DNA from: Antonospora locustae
Taxonomy: Eukaryota > Microsporidia
Direction: 5' to 3'
Assembly (NCBI GenBank): GCA_007674295.1
Contig: CM017448.1
Span: 62,001 to 126,000 of the forward strand
DNA length: 64,000 nt
The translations under genes and the position numbers were made by a program. The notes below the pieces were generated by a model, which was given only the letters and a program-made list of their open reading frames with translations, made no database searches and was not told the origin of the DNA. How positions within the stretch are numbered: the stretch's first letter is position 1; each line of letters opens with the position of its first letter. This document shows, in pieces, positions 1 to 37,399 of this stretch.

Positions 1-3000
1 AGGTTTTTAACAATTATGTTTAAAATAACATTATATTATTGTTTGTATTATGCCACTCTATCACACACTTCTTTTAATATTTATTATGAACATAACTTTA
101 TGAACACAAACTAGTGTTATTTTAAATGGAAACATTAAATTAAATAAAAAGTTGATAATTAAATTCATTTGAAATCCAGAAAAGATAAAATTAGTTAAGT
201 ATGTTTGCATATTTAGGTAATAGTATGAAATGAATCTATAGTGAATTCGCTCATAAAATTACTGTCTGCTTTAAACATAATATATAAATGTAATAAATTT
301 TATTTTCGTTGTATATTATAATTAACTTATTAATAATTACGAAATTTAGCAAATATATAATCTCATGATTGCACTTTAGAGCATAGGCTAGATAGGGAAG
401 AATGCTAACGCCATTAGGCTGCTGTAGGAAAAAGTTAAGCACAAAAGCGCGAGATTTATTGTGTATGGTTCTGGAAACTGTCTCTATATGCTTTTTACAT
501 TAACCATAAGTCTAACAAGAATTCCATAATCATATTATTAATATATAAAATCAATGTATTAAATATTAATCATAACATTAGGATAGCATTTACATTTTAC
601 AAACACAAAAACGTTTAGATTAAGTTATCAAATAATAACAAGTAATATTTTAATGAGATTTAGATTATTGAATAATGTATTAATAAAAAAGTGATATAGT
701 CGTCATTTTAACTATTTTAACTATTTTATTTATCAAATAAGTTATACTTTCTAGTATTTCTATATAATTAATATCAAAAGTAATAGTTATAGTTTTTGAT
801 TATAATAATAATTTAAGTACGTTGTATTGTTTGTGAAGATTATCGTTATTCCTTTAAAATATGTTTTACATAAATTTTTATAATTTATACATAAACTAGT
901 ATAAGTTCTGTATTAAAGATTAAAAAACTAATTGATTAACAAAACTAGTAAACAAAAATATATTCTATTAATAATTTAATTAAATAAATAAAAATAAAAT
1001 TAATTTATTTACTTTAACTACTTTATATAACTTAACAATTTATAAATTGATTATACTTTACTATAATTTTGTTAAATAGATGTATAACTAGCTATATAAG
1101 CAAATAAAATTGTTAAATGAATATAAAATAAACTTATAATCATATTAAAATTTATATGATAAGTTTACATTATAAATTTTTATTTAATATAAATAATTAT
1201 ACAAAATGAAAATAAGTAGTTTTACATGATAAGTTTTACAAATATAAAGTTTATGAATACATCACATTATTAATAATTTTTCATATTAATTTAATTTATT
1301 TATTTAGTTGAAATTAAACAATTTTCTGTAATTTTAATTAAATTAAGTGGGTTGTTTGTTAATTTTACTGTTTGCATTTAGTTTTGTTATTACAGTATAA
1401 CTTTTTTTATTTCTTTTTATTGTTTGTTTTTAGCTAAAATTACTAAATTAATAAAAATATTTTCGTATGCATATACATAGGTCATAAAAAGAATTAAGAT
1501 TCTCTTTTTTATTATTTGTGATTTATGTAAATGTTTAGAAATGAAAAGCAAAAAAATATACGATAATACTTACTCAGTTATTTACATACACATATATAAC
1601 TTGATTACATTAATTTAGAAACCTATACATTATAACTTATAATGTAGAAGGGTCATAAAATTAATTATAAAATTTAAATTTACTTCTATAAATATTTAAA
1701 ATTTTAATCAATATTGGATTATAATATAAATACATATAACAATATTGATCTGAGTTGAACCATGTCTTGTAATGAAAACTATTTATAATTATATGCCTAA
1801 TTTTATTACCTAAAAATCATTATTTGTGAAAATCCATAATTTTAATTTAAATATTTTAATAATCATCATTTATTTGATAGTAAACTTCATATATTTTATT
1901 TAAAACGAAATCATTAATACCAAATTATTTATTATTTAAAAATCACAAAATAATACGCTTTAAATTTATCTTAGGTTAAAATATAAAAAGTTTAAGTTTT
2001 CTTTATTTTATAATGTTTTTAATTAAAGTTATTTTAACCTTAAGTATTATAAATATAGTATAAGTTATATTGTGATTAGAAAAAGTTCATTTATAAACCA
2101 AAAACATGATGGTAATAACTATTGAAATATATTTTTTTACCTAGAATTATTTACTATATTAATTTTTTAAATAAAGCCAATACTAAAAAAGCTCTTATAT
2201 TAAAGCTTTTGCAGTAAAAAATCCATCAGAGTTTTCTAATTTTATTTGTGTGTTTGATATGCATATTAATAAAACAGAAAATTTCTTTTTTATAGTATAG
2301 ATACGTTAACATTTTAGTAAGTGCTAATACCTATTTATAGAAAAGAAAACTACTTAATAAAAATTATAGCTTCAAATTGAGTAAATATATGTTGTAAATA
2401 ATCATAGTTTTATGCATATTTTGAAGAACCTAAGTCTAAGTATTTATTGTTTTGTATTAAAAGCAAGATTGAGGTTATTAAAAATATTTTTATTTAAGCA
2501 TATAATTATAAACTTATATTATTTTAAGTTTCGTTCGTCATGAGCCTATTGTATACATTTTTTTAGCACTTGTCAAAATAATAACGAATTTTATAATTTA
2601 CATATTCTTGAGCGGCCTTATTCTATCTCATCTTTTATTTGTAAAACTGTCATCTAAAAAAAGTATGTTTTTTTTTAATTTTATTGTCTAGTTAAATGGG
2701 AATATTATATTTCCAGAACAGAATATTGCTTTCAACTTTCGGAGTTTTGAAGCATTTTATAGCAAATTCGTATTTATAAATTTTTATAAATTGAATTATA
2801 AATATGAGCCACCTTACCTCTATACATGTTTTATTTCCAAATAAAGTATTATCTTAAAAAATTATTAATTTTGATAATTATTATAAAAATCATAAGCAAT
2901 ATATAATAAATTTTATATTTAACTTTGCATCACTCATTTTACAAAGAATATTTCTAGTACAAAACAAATAATATTTATCAAAGACAGAGCTAATGTTTCT

Positions 3001-4780
3001 TTAAAAAAGTAAGTACTTTTTAATGTATATGGGACTATTTTTATTTTTTTTGTAAACCTGAATAAAGTGAACAAATAATTTGTTTCCAGTTACAAGGCAA
3101 AAGTACGAATTAATTAAAAATTTACTTAATCCATATTTTTTTCTTAGAAAATATTGTCAACTATAGTATTTTATCTACTAAATTGATATTATTTGTATTA
3201 TTTTTTTCCTATATTTATGGATTAAATGCTATCTTAATGAATTCTTAATTTAATCTTCTTTTTATGTGTTTTTAAATCTTATTTTATTCATATATTCGTG
3301 ATTTTCATTGATATTATTAGTAAAAATAAAAAGCTTTTTTCACATACAACAACTTTATTCATATTTACATTCGGGAAACCATCCTAAAGCTCACATAACT
3401 ATGGTCCATCACGTACTTTGTACTCAATTTCGTTTGTTTTCTCATATTTTTTCTGATTACTTTCTACTATATATAATTAAAACATGTTTATTATATTTTC
3501 CAAAGAATCTTCTGTATAGGAAAAAGATATTTTTGAATGCTAAAATAAGTCTGCGTACCCAGTAAAGGATGATAGCATCCGCAACCCCACTGATTCTAAA
3601 AAGCTATTTATTAAATATGAGTTTGTTAAACTATTTTCTAATATTTTTGCAATAAATTAAACAGTGAAAATAGTGACCGGAAATATTAATGAAACATTAT
3701 TAATAAAGACTTCGCATAAAAATTATATCAGCGTAAAAAGTTTTTTCTTTAAGAAAGGTTTATGTTTGTTTTTTATTCAAAATACCATTGGTCTTTACAT
3801 CAAAATGTTATTGTAAAACAGTCTATTAGAGACAGATCATTTCCAGCTCTTCACTCAATAAACATTCCCATCTTCGTTTCGTATTCAGCAATGAATGTTA
3901 GTATTGTATTATTATATTTAAAAAACAAAAACTATTTAACTAAAAGCTCTGCGATTTTGAAATAGCAGATGAATAACCAATGACTCCTTAATATTTTATG
4001 TAATGCATGATTAGTAAGTAAAGTTATGTAATAAAAGTCATATATAATAATTTTTGCACAGGAAAGTATTAATTTCTTGTCAATTATTTAAATAAAAAAA
4101 AGCAAAAACAACTAAGATTCCCTAAATACTTTGTTACCATATTAGTAAAAAAAACCATTGGGGTATTCAGGTCTGTTGTACTTTATTATTATAAATATTA
4201 TAATCATAGTAATTTTCAGACGTAAAGGTTTTTGTGAAAAATATTCCTACAAAAAGATGATCTGTTTGTGATCAATTTTATTAAATACATCAAAATGAAA
4301 AAGTCACTTTTAAAAATTAGTTTAAAATAGAAACTTGCATAAAATAAACATAAAATTATTTTTTTAAACATTCATATTTAAATGAATTCAGCAGTGATAT
4401 ATGAAAATAAATATTTGATTGTCGTTCATAAAATTAGCTTCAATGAAATAAACTTATAACTTCCTGATGATCACATATTCGCAAAATATTGAATTTCGTA
4501 GTAAAATATAATTTTGTTGTCTTCTATATCTTTTATCAGAATGGTAACGAATGAAAAATATTTAATTTTGGTATTCAAGATGTATTTTATATTTCATCTT
4601 GTATCCATATGAATTTCTTCGTCCTTTATCGTTCTATTTTTTAACTGTTTGTATAAACATGCATAAAAGCCACACTAGCATATTCAAATTTTATTTATTT
4701 TCAGCAAGGCAACACTTTTATATGATTACAAACATGTTGTACAATACTAAGTATTTTAAATAACTATTTATAACAACTCT
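1..4780. other. Extremely AT-rich gene-free block
   Basis: About 4.8 kb with GC near 15 percent by eye; some 60-base lines hold only three G or C. The only open frames are short (up to about 85 codons), begin at weak or non-ATG codons, and their low-complexity translations rich in I, Y, N, L and F match nothing I know. I see no tandem array, telomeric repeat, rRNA or tRNA. A slightly less AT-rich island lies around 3340-3600. Composition changes sharply near 4.8 kb, just beyond the 3' end of the SMC5 gene. It may be a regional centromere, subtelomeric DNA or a decayed region; the sequence alone does not decide. Confidence 0.75.
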
Positions 4781-9853: not shown

Positions 9854-10141
9854 GCTGTTTTGTGCGTTCTGTTGTAGTTGAAATACGAAACCCGAAAAGA
9901 AAAACCCTAAACTCGACAGAGTTTTTGCTGTTATTATTTCTTTACGATAAACGGCTTCTTGCAGCTTTGATGGCCATTAGATCTGCTTTGAAATTCTTCA
10001 CTTGAAAAAAGGCACAGTAGCACGTGCTCATGCATCAGTTGTGCGGAAAGGACATGCCGAAGGATAGAAGACGGTTTATTGTGTTTGCGTGCACGACTAT
10101 TGAAACGATGGCACGATATGCTGCTATGTAGAACTTCACAA

Positions 10142-13901: not shown

Positions 13902-14525
13902 TCATCGAAACTCAAACTTGATTTTGCACTTTCTGCAGATGGGGACGACACCGCAATAAATCGCTAAACATATCGGACACACGAGTCCGAGAGAAATTGC
14001 TCTGTTGTGGCAGGTACAGCTTGCCTGAAAGCTGATTGGTTGGCTTTCGCAGCGAGTGCCAAGAATCCACATGAAAAACCTGCTCAGCGGTTCGCCCTTC
14101 CAGTACATTCCTCCAGTCATCAAGGCAGCCTGCTTGGCAACTTCGTTCTCGTCGAAGTTCAACGAGTCGATGCGGACTCCAAGCTTCTGTGCGCCAAAGG
14201 CGCAGCGCAGCAGGTCTTTGTCTGCTCTGAACGAGACGATCAGGACTCGCGACGCACATCCGTAGATGTTCGCAAGACACAGCGCGTATCCAAGATCAGT
14301 ACTGAGAGGTGCGTCCTCCTCATGTCGGAGGTCCTTGACAAAGCTTTCCAAACTCGCTATGCTTGAGTCAAAAATGATTTTTCGAGAGACAACGATGATT
14401 CGGTTGTCGACATGTAATTTCAGAAATGTGTTGAAGAAGACGATGATTGACGATAATGTCTTCGAAGGATCAGAAATCTCCTGCCATCGTGCACGGCTTC
14501 TTTGCAGAACCACAAACAACATCAT
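13902..14525 (-). CDS. TFB4: TFIIH subunit Tfb4 (p34/GTF2H3)
   Basis: 207-residue core TFIIH subunit used in transcription initiation and nucleotide excision repair. A von Willebrand A-like domain starts at MMLFVVLQRS. RVLIVSF and the FGAQKLGVRIDSLNFDE segment follow, then GGMYWK and a short linker. The C-terminal C4 zinc module is C-x-C at ASCTCHN, then CPICLAIYCG, then CRKC, the hallmark of Tfb4. Human p34 is about 308 residues, so loops are trimmed. The start is the first of two ATGs, with ACCC about 10 nt upstream. The frame runs 60 codons further but would overlap the divergent DCP1 gene. Confidence 0.9.
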   Translation of the reverse strand: MMLFVVLQRSRARWQEISDPSKTLSSIIVFFNTFLKLHVDNRIIVVSRKIIFDSSIASLESFVKDLRHEEDAPLSTDLGYALCLANIYGCASRVLIVSFRADKDLLRCAFGAQKLGVRIDSLNFDENEVAKQAALMTGGMYWKGEPLSRFFMWILGTRCESQPISFQASCTCHNRAISLGLVCPICLAIYCGVVPICRKCKIKFEFR

Positions 14526-14654
14526 CACGTCTGGGTATTTTTTCCCTTCTGCTAAGTGAATCGCTTCTGTGGCTTTGCATGTGACCATCACATGTTTTAT
14601 GTTCAGCACTGCGTTGCTGTTCTTCCTGCTATCGAGAACGCCGTCAACACCCCA

Positions 14655-15038
14655 ATGATGCTCGAAAGAGTGCTGTTGAAAAAGGATCACTTCTTTACAA
14701 ATCACATTCTTTCAGTCAGCAAAGTAAAGCTTTTTGTGTTCAAGACAAGATGGACTGAAACAAACATCGAGGGACCGATGTTTCTTTACCAGCGCAGCAA
14801 GGAACCGTTGAGGCGTTTCATAATATTCAACACAAAAAGGCCTCGTGATTTTGTGTTTGACTTCGACCTGAATCTTAGCTACGCACTTGAAAATCAGTTT
14901 CTAATGCTCAAGCGTAACTTCGTATATGGCGTCTGGTTTTACAGCCGAGACGAGTTCATCAGAATGCGGAAAGTGCTTGAGGATCTCCAGGAGTCAGTTG
15001 TCAAAACACGATCTACGTTCTTTGCATCGGAGAAGTAG
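14655..15038 (+). CDS. DCP1: mRNA decapping activator DCP1 (EVH1 domain)
   Basis: 127-residue EVH1-fold protein that activates the decapping enzyme Dcp2 in 5'-to-3' mRNA decay. The order of motifs is diagnostic: VKLFVFKTRW, NIEGPMFLYQRS, RFIIFNT, DFDLNLSYALENQFLMLK and YGVWFYSRDE, matching DCP1's VEGTLFVY, FTIMNR and IYGIWFY. It is almost only the EVH1 domain. Two adjacent ATGs follow CCCCA; the open frame upstream of them overlaps TFB4 and is not used. It diverges from TFB4 with 129 bp between start codons and converges on the RING gene with a 21-bp gap. Confidence 0.88.
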   Translation: MMLERVLLKKDHFFTNHILSVSKVKLFVFKTRWTETNIEGPMFLYQRSKEPLRRFIIFNTKRPRDFVFDFDLNLSYALENQFLMLKRNFVYGVWFYSRDEFIRMRKVLEDLQESVVKTRSTFFASEK

Positions 15039-15059
15039 CAACAGCCTGGAAACACATCG

Positions 15060-15602
15060 CTAGCGGTACACAGCGACCCAGTAGTACAAAAACAGGCATC
15101 CAAAGAGTCCCCACCCGACACCGATCTGCACGTTTTGGAGCTTTGTGATACTGAGAAAGTAGCGAATTCCCCTGCAGCTTTTTTTCATGAGGTCACCCAT
15201 AACGCCTTCATAGCTGCTAAAAGTCTCTTTGTATGCACTGTCCTCAAGGAGACACTTGTTTCCGTAGTTTATCTTCACTCCGCGCGGGTGAATCGGAATC
15301 AGATCGTTTTCCTCGTTGTGCCCACGGCAGACAGGACAGACACTGGGTTTCTCCTTCAGGCTGTACCACTTTTTCACGCACAGCCAGCAGTACACATGGC
15401 CGCATAGCGTTATCACAGGGACTTTGGGGTTGTCTCGACAGATGTTGCACAGAAACATCGTGCTCACTACAGCAACGTCAAATTCATCTGTGTAGTACGG
15501 TACCTCGTAGTACTTCTCCGCAAGAAGAATGCGCACTTGCGCTATCACTCGCTGCAACATTCGTGCTGCTAGTAGGATGACTTTCGACAGCAACGGCGGC
15601 AT
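15060..15602 (-). CDS. RING-finger E3 with C-terminal membrane anchor (RNF5/RNF185-like)
   Basis: 180-residue probable ubiquitin ligase. A C3HC4 RING near residues 48-90 reads CNIC, then CGHVYCWLC and CPVC, followed by IPIHPRG, which resembles the RNF5/RNF185/RMA1 family. The C-terminal end is a hydrophobic helix (GVGWGLFGCLFLYYW), so the protein should sit in the ER membrane with its RING facing the cytosol and serve ER-associated degradation. The N-terminal helix LLSKVILLAARMLQRVIA may also be membrane-associated. I chose the ATG directly preceded by CCC; the open frame extends about 68 codons further. Confidence 0.8.
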   Translation of the reverse strand: MPPLLSKVILLAARMLQRVIAQVRILLAEKYYEVPYYTDEFDVAVVSTMFLCNICRDNPKVPVITLCGHVYCWLCVKKWYSLKEKPSVCPVCRGHNEENDLIPIHPRGVKINYGNKCLLEDSAYKETFSSYEGVMGDLMKKSCRGIRYFLSITKLQNVQIGVGWGLFGCLFLYYWVAVYR

Positions 15603-16652
15603 GGGCTGCCGCCCCGCAGGGTTGAAGCAAAACGAAGTCCATATAACAGAAAGGTTTTGTGCTTGCAAAGGGAGAAAAAAGCATCTTGAAAGGCACTTCT
15701 CAAAGGGAAAGACGCATGTAGTCTCGTTTAAAACGAGAAGAGCATTAAGCTTGCCAATGCACTGCAAGACAACAAATTCTGAAGATGCAGTATACTGATT
15801 GTGCAATCATCACAAGAAAGTTACGATGCAATAAAAAATGACAAAGCCTGCGCAGAATAACGAGAAGGAAAGAGAGCCTCGCACAGAGACGGTAGAAAAA
15901 GACCATAATAAAACCTACGACAGATGATGCAAAAAGCCTCGTATTGTACAGTTTTGAATCTGTTTTAAAGACACGAAGCTTACGCTGTGGAAAAGTGTTT
16001 CTGTAAAGCTTTGAAGAGGAGAATTTGTGCTATTCACGAACGTTGGAGTTTGCAGATATGCTGTTTCTTAGTGAATCGTTTGGAAACAAATGCTTGAATA
16101 TGCTGCTTATTCTGTGAGCAACAGCATTAAACAATGTTTTTGCTTGCTGCCTCGCAATTTGAGCATCTTTCGCCTGCGAACCTGGTGGAAAAGAGCCAAA
16201 ACACACACAAATAACCGGTTTAAAGGAAAATGCAGGCAGTTGAAGCGATAATCACGCCCATGGCAATTCGTAAAGCATCTAACGCGAACACATAAGAGTT
16301 GCAGGGAAACTTGCAAAGAACTTTCATAATCCGGAAGAACCCAAACAGAGAAGCTACATGAATTTCGCGGATGCTATGGCAGGCCATTCACGTCTCCCTG
16401 AAAAAGCGAACACAGGTCTGTGGCGGGTTGAATGGTTTTGTCAAAAAATGCACGCCGTGGGAAGCAAAGAAAAGAAAGCGCTGTTCTGGAAATCGAGTCT
16501 AAGAAGCTCAAAAAAGCTGCGATTTACTCGGTGCAAATCGCAAGACCAGCTTGAAGCCCAGCAATGGAAACATAAGCATTCACGCTCTGATCAAGCATGA
16601 GGAAAGTGTGACGAAGCGCCAAATTCTGTTTTTGAGTTTTATTTTGGCATCA
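15603..16652. other. Long intergenic region without a recognisable gene
   Basis: At about 1.05 kb this is the longest gap in the gene-dense part. Two short frames (16107-16316 minus, 69 codons; 16358-16600 plus, 80 codons) have no recognisable motif. I looked for U2, U4, U5, U6, RNase P, SRP and tRNA signatures and found none that holds. It may contain an unrecognised structural RNA, a decayed gene or only regulatory DNA. Confidence 0.4.
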
Positions 16653-17213
16653 TCACTTCACCTCTTTGCTCACTGAGCTGCTTGACAGCCCGTCAGTCTT
16701 TTTGTCCATCAGCCAATCAGGTGCTTCTCTTCCGTTTCTCCACCTTGCAAATCTCATCTTCTCGTTCAGATAATATTGTCTGTACGCCTCTATGGGGTTG
16801 CTGCACTTGTATTTGTCGGGCATTGCTTGTGCGAAGACCTGCAGGTCCTCGGACTGAAAGACAAGCAGGTCCTTGTTGTTGTCGCACCAATCTATGACGT
16901 CCTCTGACTTGTGCCTTCGCTTGTATCTCCACGTGTATTCTGCACACAGTTCCCTTCCGTACACTATCAGCCAGCAAAAGTTTCCCCTCGACTGCCTGGC
17001 CCATAGCGAGCAGGGGTGGTTCTTGTGGCTGAGCTTGTACGGCACTTCAACGCTTTTGTCAGTGATGTTTACAAACGGGTTTGGCATCTTCAGCGCCACC
17101 GAAAAGACGCTGCTAAGCAGCTGAGCCGTTTCAAGTGGCATCTTCACGATGTGCTTGTCACACAGCATCTTTGCTGCAACCGCCGGGTCTTCGTCCAGCA
17201 CAAAGATGTTCAT
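16653..17213 (-). CDS. Phage/giant-virus-type conserved protein of unknown function
   Basis: 186-residue protein. Three blocks are characteristic of a small family I know from tailed phages (including cyanophages), some bacteria and large DNA viruses: MNIFVLDEDP followed by CDKHIVKMPLETAQLL; KLSHKNHPCSLWARQS, then WL and EYTWRYKRRHKS; and FAQAMPDKYK, AYRQYYLNEKMRFARW, PDWL. Conserved D, H, K, W, R and Y residues suggest an enzyme, but I know of no assigned function. It has the local CCCC signal three bases before its ATG and local-type codon use, so it looks resident rather than freshly arrived. It sits between two long gaps. Horizontal acquisition is an inference. Confidence 0.75.
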   Translation of the reverse strand: MNIFVLDEDPAVAAKMLCDKHIVKMPLETAQLLSSVFSVALKMPNPFVNITDKSVEVPYKLSHKNHPCSLWARQSRGNFCWLIVYGRELCAEYTWRYKRRHKSEDVIDWCDNNKDLLVFQSEDLQVFAQAMPDKYKCSNPIEAYRQYYLNEKMRFARWRNGREAPDWLMDKKTDGLSSSSVSKEVK

Positions 17214-17722
17214 TCAGGGGTTGAAGAGAGATGCTGCATCATAGCTTCTGCTCTGGCAAAACTAAAAGTGCGAAGAGCCGTGGCAGAATATGTCCTGTTT
17301 GTGCATTCTGCAAGTTTGCCTTCTGTTGCCCTTTATTTTTGCTGTCAATCCGTTTTCAGTATGCAAATTGCCTTTTTGAGCAATCAGTTGTAATTAGATT
17401 CTGTATATTGTAGTACTCATTCTGCTAATTGAGTTATTCTTTACACGTAGCACATAATTCCGTTTCTCTATCGCGTTTGAAACTCTTGCTTTGAGAAGTG
17501 CAGATTAACAGGTCTGATCGCTGTTTTAATGTTTCGCCGGTGTCTCTTTGAATATGTGCATTGGCCCACACTTAGACACGTCAGAAAGCTGTTCGCTTCT
17601 GACATGGTGGTAACAGAAGTTTTATTGGTATCGTGATAACAGCAGCAAAGACAATTTCTCCACTATTTGGCAACAGTTAGAAATAGAACGAAGCGGAATT
17701 TCCATTTGCAAGAGCCCCCGCA
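17214..17722. other. Divergent intergenic region with one hairpin
   Basis: About 510 bases between the phage-type gene and the reductase. No coding frame is convincing, and no flavodoxin-like coding sequence that could have belonged to the reductase is visible. It includes the inverted repeat at 17580-17603. Confidence 0.4.
17580..17603. repeat. Short inverted repeat (possible hairpin)
   Basis: GTCAGAA and TTCTGAC flank ten bases; allowing one bulged base the stem extends to about nine pairs. It lies about 120 bp upstream of the reductase start. It could be a regulatory or RNA hairpin, or chance. Confidence 0.3.
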
Positions 17723-18823
17723 ATGTTCAACGAAGTCCGGATACACTTCAGAGACTTCACGCCTCGAAGCTTTGTGCTGAGCACTGCAACGTGTCTTACA
17801 CACTCTGAGAGGGCGGAAAGGAGTTTTGTTGGTGAGATTCCGTACTGTGCAGTGGAGATAAAAAGCGTTTCAAGAAAACGCTGCTTGTGGAGGGAGGTTC
17901 ACTCGCTATCACTTGGAATGAAGACTGCGTTCTGTCCCGGAGACACAGTTGGACTGCTTGTGCCCAACGACGCGCAGATTGTGGACAGGCTCTTTGAAAT
18001 CTGCTTGCTGAGTGACACACGCGTCTCGATTTTGCGCAAAGGCAGACACGGATTCTCGTACTCAGGGTCGCTCTACGACTTCTTTTTGCATTATGTCGAC
18101 TTCCACACGCTGCCCAAAAAGTCGTTTCTCCACGCTCTGTCAAAGACGAGTCCTCAGGGCCAAATGCTTGAGTATCTCTGCTCGAAAGAGGGCACGCAGG
18201 ACTATTTTGGAATGCTGGGCAGAAACAACATCGTGGACATTATCGAAACATTCAAGTGCAGGCCCACGGCATCCATGCTCGTTGAGCATTGCGAGATAAT
18301 CAGACCGCGATTCTTCAGCCTGACAAACCATCGGGACAGCCACGCAGAGATTCTCGTCGGTGCCATCAGCAACGGACACGTGTCGCGATTTGTTGCAAGA
18401 TGCAGCGCGGGTGAGCTTGTCTGGTGCTACGTGAGAGAAAATAAGCTGATGCGGATGACATCTGCAGCGATCTTGCTGTGTATCTGCACGGGGACAGGAA
18501 TTGCGCCGTTCATTGCGTTTGCAAGAAACAAGGCGGAAGAGCAGATGCTATGGATCGTTTTTGGATGCCGAAACACAGAAGACGACCTTTCTGTGGACAT
18601 CGCAGCTGCAGATGGTGTGGAGATCAGCAGGGCGTTTTCCTCACGGGGCGAGTATGTGACTGACATTCTTGCGCGGAACGAGGGACGCGTTGAAGCATTT
18701 TTTTGCAAAGGCGACGTCTTCGTGTGTGGAGGTCCTGAGATGCAGAGAAGCGTGATGTGTTTTATTGAGTCCCGCTTTGGCAGGAATGCTGCGGAAAAGG
18801 TGCTCCGTGATGACTGGAGATGA
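17723..18823 (+). CDS. FAD/NADPH reductase of the diflavin family, flavodoxin domain absent
   Basis: 366 residues matching the C-terminal two thirds of diflavin reductases (Tah18/NDOR1, methionine synthase reductase, P450 reductase). The FAD domain has CPGDTVGLLVPND and RPRFFSLTN. The NADPH domain has CICTGTGIAPF, FGCRN and FVCGGPEMQ. In Tah18 these domains pass electrons from NADPH through FAD to an N-terminal FMN flavodoxin and on to Dre2 for cytosolic Fe-S assembly. Here the flavodoxin module of roughly 150 residues is missing, and the ATG preceded by CCCCC leaves no room for it in frame. Either it is encoded elsewhere, or this protein reduces its partner directly. Tah18 is the likeliest ancestor because that pathway is essential. 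Confidence 0.75.
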   Translation: MFNEVRIHFRDFTPRSFVLSTATCLTHSERAERSFVGEIPYCAVEIKSVSRKRCLWREVHSLSLGMKTAFCPGDTVGLLVPNDAQIVDRLFEICLLSDTRVSILRKGRHGFSYSGSLYDFFLHYVDFHTLPKKSFLHALSKTSPQGQMLEYLCSKEGTQDYFGMLGRNNIVDIIETFKCRPTASMLVEHCEIIRPRFFSLTNHRDSHAEILVGAISNGHVSRFVARCSAGELVWCYVRENKLMRMTSAAILLCICTGTGIAPFIAFARNKAEEQMLWIVFGCRNTEDDLSVDIAAADGVEISRAFSSRGEYVTDILARNEGRVEAFFCKGDVFVCGGPEMQRSVMCFIESRFGRNAAEKVLRDDWR

Positions 18824-18853
18824 CGTAAGTGAGAGCATCGTACTCGAGCCCCA

Positions 18854-19396
18854 ATGTTGCCGGTCGATGTTCTGAGCAGCATGCTCGAGAAGATGCATGA
18901 GTATCCGCACAAGGCGAGGCACTACAACAGAATTCTTTTGCGAAGCATCGAAACGTACAGGCGGAAGTACCGGCGGGCGCTCAGAGACCTGCTGCGGGGT
19001 GCCGCTGAAACTGCACCACTGAATAGAAAGCATAAGTACGAGACAAAGATATCTGAGGCACTCGACGCGAAGGTCGCAGCATCCAGAAAGATGCTCGAGC
19101 TTACATCTGCAATGGTAGACGAGATGGAGCAGCTGCTGAAGGCAAGCGACGCAGCAGTCAGCATGGACATTCCCTCCGTGCAGAACACACCAAACGTCGT
19201 CCACGTGGGCGACGTGACAGAAGGAACGTTCTGCAAGTGCAGACAGCCCGCTTATAGTGACATGATCTGCTGCGACTCTCTGCGATGCAGAACGAAGTGG
19301 TTCCACTTCAGATGCGTTGGGCTCACGAGTGTCCCAAAGGGCAGCTGGCACTGTCCGGAGTGCAGAAAGGACTGGCGGCTCTGCAGAGTGGGGTAG
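18854..19396 (+). CDS. ING-family PHD finger protein
   Basis: 180-residue nuclear subunit of histone acetyltransferase or deacetylase complexes (compare Yng1, Yng2 and Pho23). An N-terminal helical ING domain fills residues 1-100. The C-terminal C4HC3 PHD finger has CKC, MICCDSLRCRTKWFHFRCVG and WHCPEC, matching ING fingers ([20 protein letters not shown]) that bind histone H3 trimethylated at lysine 4. The aromatic cage residue before FHF is present. CCCC precedes the ATG. The start lies 30 bp after the reductase stop, and the gene converges on the WD40 gene with an 8-bp gap. Confidence 0.9.
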   Translation: MLPVDVLSSMLEKMHEYPHKARHYNRILLRSIETYRRKYRRALRDLLRGAAETAPLNRKHKYETKISEALDAKVAASRKMLELTSAMVDEMEQLLKASDAAVSMDIPSVQNTPNVVHVGDVTEGTFCKCRQPAYSDMICCDSLRCRTKWFHFRCVGLTSVPKGSWHCPECRKDWRLCRVG

Positions 19397-19404
19397 TGCG
19401 GGTC

Positions 19405-20388
19405 TCAGAAAAACTCACCGTAGCACGACATCCGCCTCATATTTGTGTTGATTGTGTATCCGAGAATGTTCTCGCCTGTGGACACGTAGATCGTGTCGCT
19501 CTCCTCGTTTATTGCAAGCCCTGTGATGCTCCGCTCGTACGCTGCCTCGTTGACCGTTATCAGCTGCCGCTTGTTGAAGTTCCTCGTGTCCAGAATGGAG
19601 AAGTACGAGTAGTGCTCAGTAAACACAAGCATGTCTATAAAGTTCTTCTTCGTGAACTGCAGGTTTCTGATTGCACCGCTCGCGTAAGGGTGCTGATGGC
19701 TCTTGATTGCAGCAATCTTCTCTTCCGCACGAATATCCCACACACATGCGTAGCCATCCTGTGTCCCCACTGCAAACATGGAGTCGTTTCCGTTCCAGGA
19801 CACGCCAAAGCCACCGTCATTCACACTTTCAAACTTCTGCACAAGCTTCAGGTTGCCGTTGCAGCAGGAGAACATCAGAACATCCTTTGTGTCTCCGCAA
19901 GCAATCAGATAATCGCCCTTCTGACTCACCTCGCAGTTGTTCACCTGCGATGTGTGCGTGTAGACGTTAGCAACAACCCCTCGAAAGAGATTCACAACCG
20001 ATATTGTCCGTTCGTTGCTGCACACATACAAGCAGTTGTTTCGTATTTTTACGGAGTTTATTATTGTATATCCAGTCTCCAGCTCAAAGCGCCTCTTTGT
20101 GTATCTGTCGTATATTGTTATCTCGCCCTTCGAGCTTCCACATGCAATAAAGCGCCTGCAGACATCAAACGTCGTCGGGTAGTACATCAGGTTCTCCACG
20201 AGAGTCTCCTGTGTCTTTGTTTTAGTGTCAAGGGCAATCATCTTGTCAATGTTGTTGTATACGATTTTTCCATCCAGGACTTTGATCATATCGCGCAGTT
20301 GCCAGTGCCGATATGGAACCGGTATCGGATACGCTACTGAAAGACCCTTTGCAAAGCGCTCTGTGTATCTTGCTTCCTGGACGCTCAT
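19405..20388 (-). CDS. WD40-repeat protein of the DUF2415 type
   Basis: 327-residue beta-propeller. Recognisable blades include FGVSWNGNDSMFAVGTQDG followed by CVWDIR, and SGAIRNLQF followed by LLVFTEH-like MLVFTEHYSYFSILDTRNF. That last block is typical of fungal DUF2415 WD proteins (LVFTEH, then VDTRTF). Function in fungi is poorly known; a nuclear or signalling scaffold is possible. The frame opens at a TTG 15 codons earlier; the first ATG is used, without a nearby CCC run. The long open frame on the opposite strand here is a shadow. Confidence 0.7.
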   Translation of the reverse strand: MSVQEARYTERFAKGLSVAYPIPVPYRHWQLRDMIKVLDGKIVYNNIDKMIALDTKTKTQETLVENLMYYPTTFDVCRRFIACGSSKGEITIYDRYTKRRFELETGYTIINSVKIRNNCLYVCSNERTISVVNLFRGVVANVYTHTSQVNNCEVSQKGDYLIACGDTKDVLMFSCCNGNLKLVQKFESVNDGGFGVSWNGNDSMFAVGTQDGYACVWDIRAEEKIAAIKSHQHPYASGAIRNLQFTKKNFIDMLVFTEHYSYFSILDTRNFNKRQLITVNEAAYERSITGLAINEESDTIYVSTGENILGYTINTNMRRMSCYGEFF

Positions 20389-36277: not shown

Positions 36278-37270
36278 TCATCTACTTTTTGTTGAAACAC
36301 AACCAGGAAGTGTTCCTAGTAGAGACGACGTGGCGGACTTTATTCTTTCTGCGCATGCCCTGTTCTCTATGGCATATACTACATTGTGCTCTATCAACCT
36401 GCATATCTCCGTAAACTCTATTGGAGTCTTCATAGCCAGCATTTGGCCCAGTATTGTTAAAAACCACTCTACAACTTCCCCACTAAACTTGTTTGGACGC
36501 GCTCCAGTGACAGACGTTATGAAAGCACATGCCTCTTTGATGTTTTGCTTGAGCTTTAGGACTCCAAAGTACATGGAATACACGCCATGGAGAGGCTCTG
36601 CACTCAGGGTAAAGAGCTTCACGCGAAAGTAGTTCATCATTTCTCGCGAGTAGAACGTACAGAATATGTATGAGTACGCAATGTACGACTTGGGATGTTT
36701 TGTGACCTGCACTCTCCCCTGGTCCAAAATCTTGTGCACAAAAAGCTTTACAAAAAGAGAAGAACCACTATGTTTTTTGAGCATGATGTGTATCTTGTCA
36801 AGGTGTGTTTTTTCCGTGCTCACTTGGGACAGACGCTTATTAATCTCCATTGTTAGTTCTCTTTGTGTGGACAGTGGAATGCATCTCTCATCTTTGCTTA
36901 TTTTTTCAGTTATGCCACACTCATCAGCTGCTCTGAACACTTTTGAAATGAAAGAGCCCGAAAACGGTATGTTTGTGACAACCTCTACCTCCTGCTCCTC
37001 TAGCTTTATATCTTGAATCATGTATACTTCCGGCTTGATGACCTCAGCCTCTTTCCTTGCGTGCATAAGAACAACGGGCTTTCCGGTGGTTGGTGGCAAG
37101 ACTCTCTCAAAGACATTTCGTGCTACTGCTGTGTCCTCTTCAGCATCAAAACTGCGAGACAATGGGACTCTTTCTGCTTTTCTCCGTTTCAGAGCTTTTA
37201 GTTTTTCTGCATTTTTGACTCTTTCTACCTCTATTCTTATAAATTCTGAAATATCATCGAAGTTCGTCAT
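36278..37270 (-). CDS. GLE1: mRNA export factor GLE1
   Basis: 330 residues. A charged helical N-terminal part is followed by a HEAT-like C-terminal domain. FVHKILDQGRVQVTKHPKSY and the segment leading to FRVKLFTLS correspond to Gle1's KIVxQxExQVxxxPxxAxP and the LL..F...CP helix. YSMYFGVLKL matches the GMxxLYAAxx helix, and EWFLTILGQML follows. Gle1 at the cytoplasmic side of nuclear pores activates the helicase Dbp5 with inositol hexakisphosphate. The long coiled coil of yeast and human Gle1 is reduced. CCCC lies three bases before the ATG; an ATG 15 codons upstream lacks it. The GPI18 start lies 58 bp downstream of its stop. Confidence 0.65.
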   Translation of the reverse strand: MTNFDDISEFIRIEVERVKNAEKLKALKRRKAERVPLSRSFDAEEDTAVARNVFERVLPPTTGKPVVLMHARKEAEVIKPEVYMIQDIKLEEQEVEVVTNIPFSGSFISKVFRAADECGITEKISKDERCIPLSTQRELTMEINKRLSQVSTEKTHLDKIHIMLKKHSGSSLFVKLFVHKILDQGRVQVTKHPKSYIAYSYIFCTFYSREMMNYFRVKLFTLSAEPLHGVYSMYFGVLKLKQNIKEACAFITSVTGARPNKFSGEVVEWFLTILGQMLAMKTPIEFTEICRLIEHNVVYAIENRACAERIKSATSSLLGTLPGCVSTKSR

Positions 37271-37399
37271 CCAGGGGATGCATGCTTGCTGTGTTTTTGT
37301 GTGCTTTCCTCTCATGATGAGGACTGTAGAGCAATAGTAGACAGTAACATGAATGCTCCACAGATCTCGCTCTTTAGTGTTTCTTTTGTGACATTCAAT

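Follow-up and report, generated by a model that had tools for sequence, protein, structure and literature searches.

A Pyr_excise-family gene related to Wolbachia in the microsporidian Antonospora locustae: probable bacterial origin and predicted role in the repair of pyrimidine dimers

From which donor did the microsporidian Antonospora locustae obtain a gene of the Pyr_excise family, and for which activity has it been kept? This gene (Table 1) lies in a 64,000-nucleotide stretch of the genome, referred to here as the window (GenBank assembly GCA_007674295.1, contig CM017448.1, positions 62,001 to 126,000 of the forward strand). The initial annotation, made from the sequence alone, had considered it as horizontally acquired and retained. 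Both points were supported by its kinship with Wolbachia and other Rickettsiales and by its native setting. Our results make it rather probable that an ancestor of the microsporidian took the gene from Wolbachia, or from a very close relative among the Rickettsiales, and that its product is a repair enzyme for ultraviolet (UV) dimers. The transfer would probably have occurred when the two shared an arthropod host.

The open reading frame (ORF) was intact, with 186 codons plus a stop, and its 186-residue product contained all the blocks that had first drawn attention to it (MNIFVLDEDP, CDKHIVKM, HKNHPCSLWARQS, FAQAMPDKYK and YRQYYLNEKMRFARW). The family, initially described as uncharacterised, is known as Pyr_excise (PF03013). 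Its profile matched the protein with 40.8 bits for a cut-off of 23 (41.6 bits in the genome scan) and, among four relatives, three scored above the cut-off and one (P0030) slightly under it (20.4 bits). NCBIfam gave no match for the query protein. A search against a database of 5.8 billion proteins returned 795 candidates, of which 740 had E<=0.001, a family match far beyond chance. The best 120 of them were listed, and the identities and organism names given next come from those.

The closest listed relative, P0001, was 89% identical to the query. It was followed by named Wolbachia proteins (73-78%) with unnamed ones (72-78%) interspersed, then by proteins from Wolbachia of Folsomia (66-68%), Orientia (65%) and Wolbachia of Howardula (55%), below which came mostly unnamed proteins at about 43-57%. 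All organism names were bacterial (Wolbachia, Orientia and one cyanobacterium), most rows carrying no name, and nothing in this set pointed to vertical descent in fungi or animals. The same set bears on the direction of transfer. It is general knowledge that arthropod hosts are common to both partners, which would also suit a passage from microsporidian to Wolbachia. Yet such a passage is highly improbable, since the family at large is bacterial and viral, Orientia and further Wolbachia rows carry it, and none of the organisms named in the 120 listed matches is a eukaryote.

The phage part of the initial family attribution stood, with members in 590 phage records and a match of PHROG 624, a phage family, to residues 1-173 (E 8.7e-60); the nearest relatives were nevertheless those from Wolbachia and other Rickettsiales, and the giant-virus part came down to a weak fold match (Catovirus, E 0.019). 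A generic phage or giant virus was rejected as donor, since phage proteins other than those of phage WO were far less similar than Wolbachia proteins (75% for phage WO, about 34-51% for the other listed phage and viral-contig matches) and large DNA viruses gave weak matches by fold.

A tree of 49 rows joined the pair of query and P0001 (100/100) to ten Wolbachia-type rows (89/97), and a starred group of 24 rows including further Wolbachia and Orientia (97/90) enclosed the query, apart from phages. A 27-row tree displayed the same joining (81/95), its 24 rows being starred (100/100) versus three distant rows. Both trees left out 7 of the first 28 proteins, which were fragments or rows without the N-terminus, and the labels 'Wolbachia-type' for sourceless rows (P0002, P0004, P0010) and 'A/B-type' were assigned by tree position. 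In the approximately unbiased (AU) test, a clade of 15 Wolbachia-type rows without the query received a p-AU of 0.008. Adding the query to these 15 rows gave, as a control, a clade that was not rejected (p 0.205). Neither a clade of the ten A/B-type rows that excluded the query (p-AU 0.4) nor, as a further control, a position of the query next to the whole set of 20 Wolbachia/Orientia-type rows (p-AU 0.128) was rejected. The values of 0.205 and 0.128 indicate that 0.008 overstates the case for nesting. Mean identities over residues 1-167, calculated for groups labelled once the first tree was known, amounted to 76.9% between the query pair and A/B-type rows, 72.8% between A/B-type and Folsomia/mite-type rows, 69.7% between the query pair and Folsomia/mite-type rows, and 65.2% between the query pair and Orientia-type rows. 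This comparison, with split sites at 5 to 1 to 1, also favours nesting in Wolbachia. Kinship with the Wolbachia/Orientia group of Rickettsiales is firm, and the data favour, without proving, a position nested within Wolbachia proper.

A phage, a plasmid or an unsampled Rickettsiales relative might also have given the gene separately to Wolbachia and to the microsporidian. Although this is rather unlikely, several points weigh in its favour: the family is widespread in phages and mobile in Wolbachia, Orientia and unnamed sequences are mixed in near the Wolbachia rows, and the position beside the whole Wolbachia/Orientia group was among those not rejected. Against it, the query and P0001 grouped with A/B-type Wolbachia rows in both trees, and these rows resembled the query more than they did Folsomia/mite-type Wolbachia.

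The gene is physically part of the recipient genome, with eukaryotic neighbours, native codon usage and a start signal. Its G+C content at third codon positions (GC3) was 0.68 versus 0.17-0.33 in four Rickettsiales homologues, and was the highest of 45 listed window ORFs although the Rickettsiales relatives are AT-rich. Likewise, its codon usage was the most native-like among 41 genes compared. Synonymous change to the four homologues was saturated, and the nonsynonymous distance (dN) to the WO copy was 0.17. The local CCCC start signal noticed at first was recovered in a set of 46 hand-picked window genes, the Pyr_excise gene among them, which also served for gap statistics: CCCC occurred within 14 nt upstream of 12/46 gene starts versus 7/394 internal in-frame ATGs (Fisher p 1.2e-8), and CCC occurred at -16..-3 of 25/45 ORF starts versus 26/382 internal ATGs.

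It is highly improbable, and the least probable of the alternatives, that a bacterial gene entered the contig through contamination or chimeric assembly. Wolbachia and microsporidia are both arthropod-dwelling (general knowledge), and a louse assembly contains a related microsporidian sequence that has been flagged as contamination; such an artefact would yet have to account for the GC3, the codon usage, the CCCC signal, the eukaryotic neighbours on both sides and the existence of P0001, a separate relative at 89% whose tail is similar. A Wolbachia LytB query also found no match in the assembly, in a search lacking a positive control.

The FAD/NAD reductase encoded next to the Pyr_excise gene had 15 listed relatives, two unnamed ones at 85% and 83% and five named ones, namely four from microsporidia and a louse record flagged as contamination (P0243, Menopon gallinae, 74%). 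This record also carries the next gene (149/180 identical), its microsporidian-like protein fusing homologues of the reductase (17723-18823) and of the PHD-type protein (18854-19396). The chicken louse thus seems to harbour, or to be accompanied by, a relative of the parasite with the same gene order. Such a close relative is probably the source of P0001, in which case the transfer would predate their split. Differences between query and P0001 affected 13/167 core positions and 7/19 tail positions, a distribution that fits a core which, from sequence comparison, appears to be under selection.

The gene had further been described as lying between two of the longest gaps, as if inserted. Among 45 gaps (median 116 bases), those on its two sides ranked first and fifth in length, but no insertion scar was seen: both flanks were single copy and shared no direct word >9 bases. 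One 13-base inverted word was taken as chance. No donor relics were seen in the flanks, neither with 76 stop-to-stop frames taken from four Rickettsiales loci nor with Pfam on two ORFs in or reaching into the left gap (15529-15798 and 16358-16600). Apart from the gene and its antisense, the 76-frame search yielded one match at E 0.001 plus weaker ones; the former, a phage WO frame matching 37029-37310 (29% over 94 residues) antisense to ORF 36278-37315 (-), is probably due to chance. Transposase queries, run without a positive control, matched nowhere in the genome, a result that says nothing on the presence of a whole transposon.

Regarding the product, a nucleic-acid-related activity, as first supposed, is likely, and the protein is predicted to be a cyclobutane pyrimidine dimer (CPD) glycosylase and apurinic/apyrimidinic (AP) lyase. 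The best fold match of the predicted model was T4 endonuclease V (denV, T4 pyrimidine dimer glycosylase, PDB 2END), with 13% identity in a fold alignment (VIA-align) that joined model residues 1..169 to T4 chain residues 2..138. The microsporidian protein is 48 residues longer and gave no direct profile match with its T4 counterpart (hhalign probability not above about 1% in any of four runs; BLASTP E 3.7). Solved structures gave a single unrelated weak match by sequence (E 0.93) and none by profile. The model displayed predicted local distance difference test (pLDDT) blocks of 53 and 63 over residues 171-186.

The conserved motifs mentioned initially were recovered in a 195-row alignment made of the query, 114 of the 120 listed database proteins, chosen for their MN start, and all 80 viral loci, not chosen by start. 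Residues Asn2, Phe4, Met25, Glu28, Gln31, His66, Pro67 and Trp71 reached 1.00 after rounding, and Ile3, His21, Lys24, Arg96 and His101 reached 0.98-0.99. Glu28 was also invariant in a 61-row alignment (A2), and the His-x6-Glu spacing of His21 and Glu28 is the same in T4 denV (motif DQHLMAEYRE in the T4 record). Among the viral loci, 76/80 displayed the MN start and 80/80 the Asn2; 73 reached the upstream stop without an intervening ATG and 7 had an upstream ATG. In the microsporidian gene, an in-frame TGA codon immediately 5' of the ATG rules out a longer N-terminus in that frame. Judging from these alignments, the protein seems obliged to start exactly at the methionine of M-N-I-F.

Methionine aminopeptidase cleaves Met before small residues such as Thr and, as a rule, not before Asn. 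Met1 is thus expected to stay, because Asn follows the initiator, and Met1-Asn2 stands in place of the mature Thr2 of T4 endonuclease V. In the latter, the amine of the N-terminal threonine forms the Schiff base, and a glutamate of the active site participates (PMC3285167). From the retention of Met before Asn, the 1/2 register of the fold alignment, the shared His-x6-Glu and the T4 mechanism, we propose Met1 as the amine donor, supplying what mature Thr2 supplies in the T4 enzyme. We infer activity, nucleophile, partners and benefit of the product as follows. The protein would locate CPDs made by UV; its N-terminal alpha-amine would attack C1' of the dimer's 5' nucleotide with assistance of Glu28; the Schiff base would allow strand cutting as AP lyase, and the product would pass to an AP endonuclease for base-excision repair. 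The genome encodes an AP_endonuc_2-type protein (a Pfam family of AP endonucleases and also of xylose-isomerase-like proteins) and displayed two Exo_endo_phos matches.

The fold may alternatively have been kept for another role on DNA, such as a nicking effector or a modified-base glycosylase, rather than for UV-dimer repair, which we consider rather unlikely. The subfamily-specific invariant block around HPC and Trp71, the profile comparison that detected no relation with T4 denV, the name 'DNA binding protein' given to PHROG 624 and the effector prediction in Wolbachia all speak for such a role. Repair of UV dimers better fits the above-cut-off Pyr_excise match, the N-terminal register and conserved His/Glu, which agree with the T4 mechanism, and the retention of the gene in a genome also keeping a photolyase.

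DNA photolyase was matched at two places of the genome (G000:C10:145748-146233 and G000:C2:18175-18660, loci L093 and L094) with equal scores and equal 528-aa open frames, that of L093 being class II (phr2, 656.6 bits). The UV-dimer repair enzyme proposed here would work in the dark and complement this class II photolyase. No genome match was found for UvdE, whereas three control genomes gave matches. The paired photolyase places perhaps correspond to a duplicated chromosome-end region, and a 225-aa ORF adjoining the photolyase (L093:2511-3188, -) is built of near-identical repeats of about 22 residues.

The gene also appears to be mobile on the bacterial side. In the phage WO record MN180251.1, the homologue starts on the base following the end of a PDDEXK_2 transposase gene, amid WO tail, resolvase and phospholipase genes; it is annotated there (L002:7194-7733) as 'protein chain release factor A', which fits ill with its Pyr_excise relatives. 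Two Wolbachia proteins, P0003 and P0013, end in the C-terminal tail of that transposase (57% over 49 positions, E 1e-12, and 67% over 45, E 2e-14, respectively). A 2024 survey (PMC11342252) lists Pyr_excise as PDDEXK_2 transposon cargo and as predicted effector. Three Wolbachia loci were retrieved together with their surroundings, and these were mixed: the transposase adjoined the gene in L002 alone; L003 was flanked by ribosomal proteins L21 and L27 and MurJ, and L005 by LytB, IMPDH and other chromosomal genes. The copies in Wolbachia of Howardula and Fragariocoptes sit among ordinary chromosomal genes. The gene can thus move in Wolbachia as PDDEXK_2 transposon cargo and in phage WO regions.

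Compared with this transposon-carried gene (PMC11342252), whose nearest named Wolbachia proteins listed are those at 73-78% identity, the microsporidian protein has a similar length and the same invariant residues in alignment A2. The Wolbachia copies are bacterial, AT-rich and mobile, two viewed proteins being fused to a transposase tail, and are predicted effectors; the microsporidian copy, unlike this cargo, is alone, native and single (one occurrence in 3,170,203 bases and 17 contigs). We tentatively suggest, as a scenario more doubtful than the transfer as such, that a mobile predicted-effector cargo of a Wolbachia transposon was captured by the microsporidian in shared arthropod cells and is now a nuclear UV-repair enzyme using the amine of its unprocessed Met, a variation on the T4 endonuclease V mechanism that would occur across the PHROG 624 subfamily.

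Table 1. Coordinates of the Pyr_excise gene, its main features and its surroundings in the window
Feature	Position	Strand	Remarks
Pyr_excise-family gene	16653..17213	-	predicted pyrimidine-dimer DNA glycosylase/AP lyase, probable Wolbachia-lineage origin
CCCC start signal	17217..17220	-	4-7 nt upstream of ATG
N-terminal M-N-I-F	17202..17213	-	M 0.98, N 1.00, I 0.98, F 1.00 over 195 rows
Codon of His21	17151..17153	-	0.99 over 195 rows; likely T4 His16 position
Codon of Glu28	17130..17132	-	1.00 (rounded) over 195 rows; likely catalytic Glu, T4 Glu23 position
HPC block His66-Pro67-Cys68	17010..17018	-	subfamily signature; H66, P67 1.00, C68 0.92 over 195 rows
C-terminal tail, residues 168-186	16656..16712	-	mostly low confidence; like P0001, unlike viewed Wolbachia proteins
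Left gap	15603..16652	.	1050 bases, longest of 45 window gaps; single copy in genome
Right gap	17214..17722	.	509 bases, fifth longest of 45; single copy in genome
Left neighbours: Tfb4 (-), DCP1 (+), RING protein (-)	13902..15602	.	Pfam
Right neighbours: FAD/NAD reductase (+), PHD-type protein (+), WD40 protein (-)	17723..20388	.	Pfam

The neighbours were eukaryotic on both sides and further included a V-ATPase subunit and PTH2 on the left and an EF-hand protein on the right, the PHD match being under Pfam's curated cut-off. A 351-aa open frame (19285-20340, +) antisense to the WD40 gene (19405-20388, -) is probably a chance frame. Neither an Rfam scan nor a tRNA scan with the bacterial code found anything in the window, whose bases 1-4000 displayed 18-22% G+C versus 40-53% from base 10000 on.

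Earlier papers on unusual microsporidian genes reportedly dealt with a class II photolyase and a bacterial catalase of Antonospora (Nosema) locustae, probably the same parasite; they are not known to concern Wolbachia. Those genes are likewise non-standard ones for DNA repair or stress, but encode other enzymes with other mechanisms. Judged by titles and opening abstracts, none of the literature matches listed described a microsporidian that carries a Wolbachia gene. The novelty lies in the donor, the recipient and the retained repair enzyme taken together, with an activity that is predicted.

If true, a gene would have moved directly from one intracellular arthropod parasite into another, with a likely lineage of origin. 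A reduced eukaryote would have obtained a second, light-independent route against UV dimers, for which the repair of sunlight damage in spores is a plausible gain. The predicted use of the Met1 amine, for its part, would apply across a large and mostly unnamed phage family.
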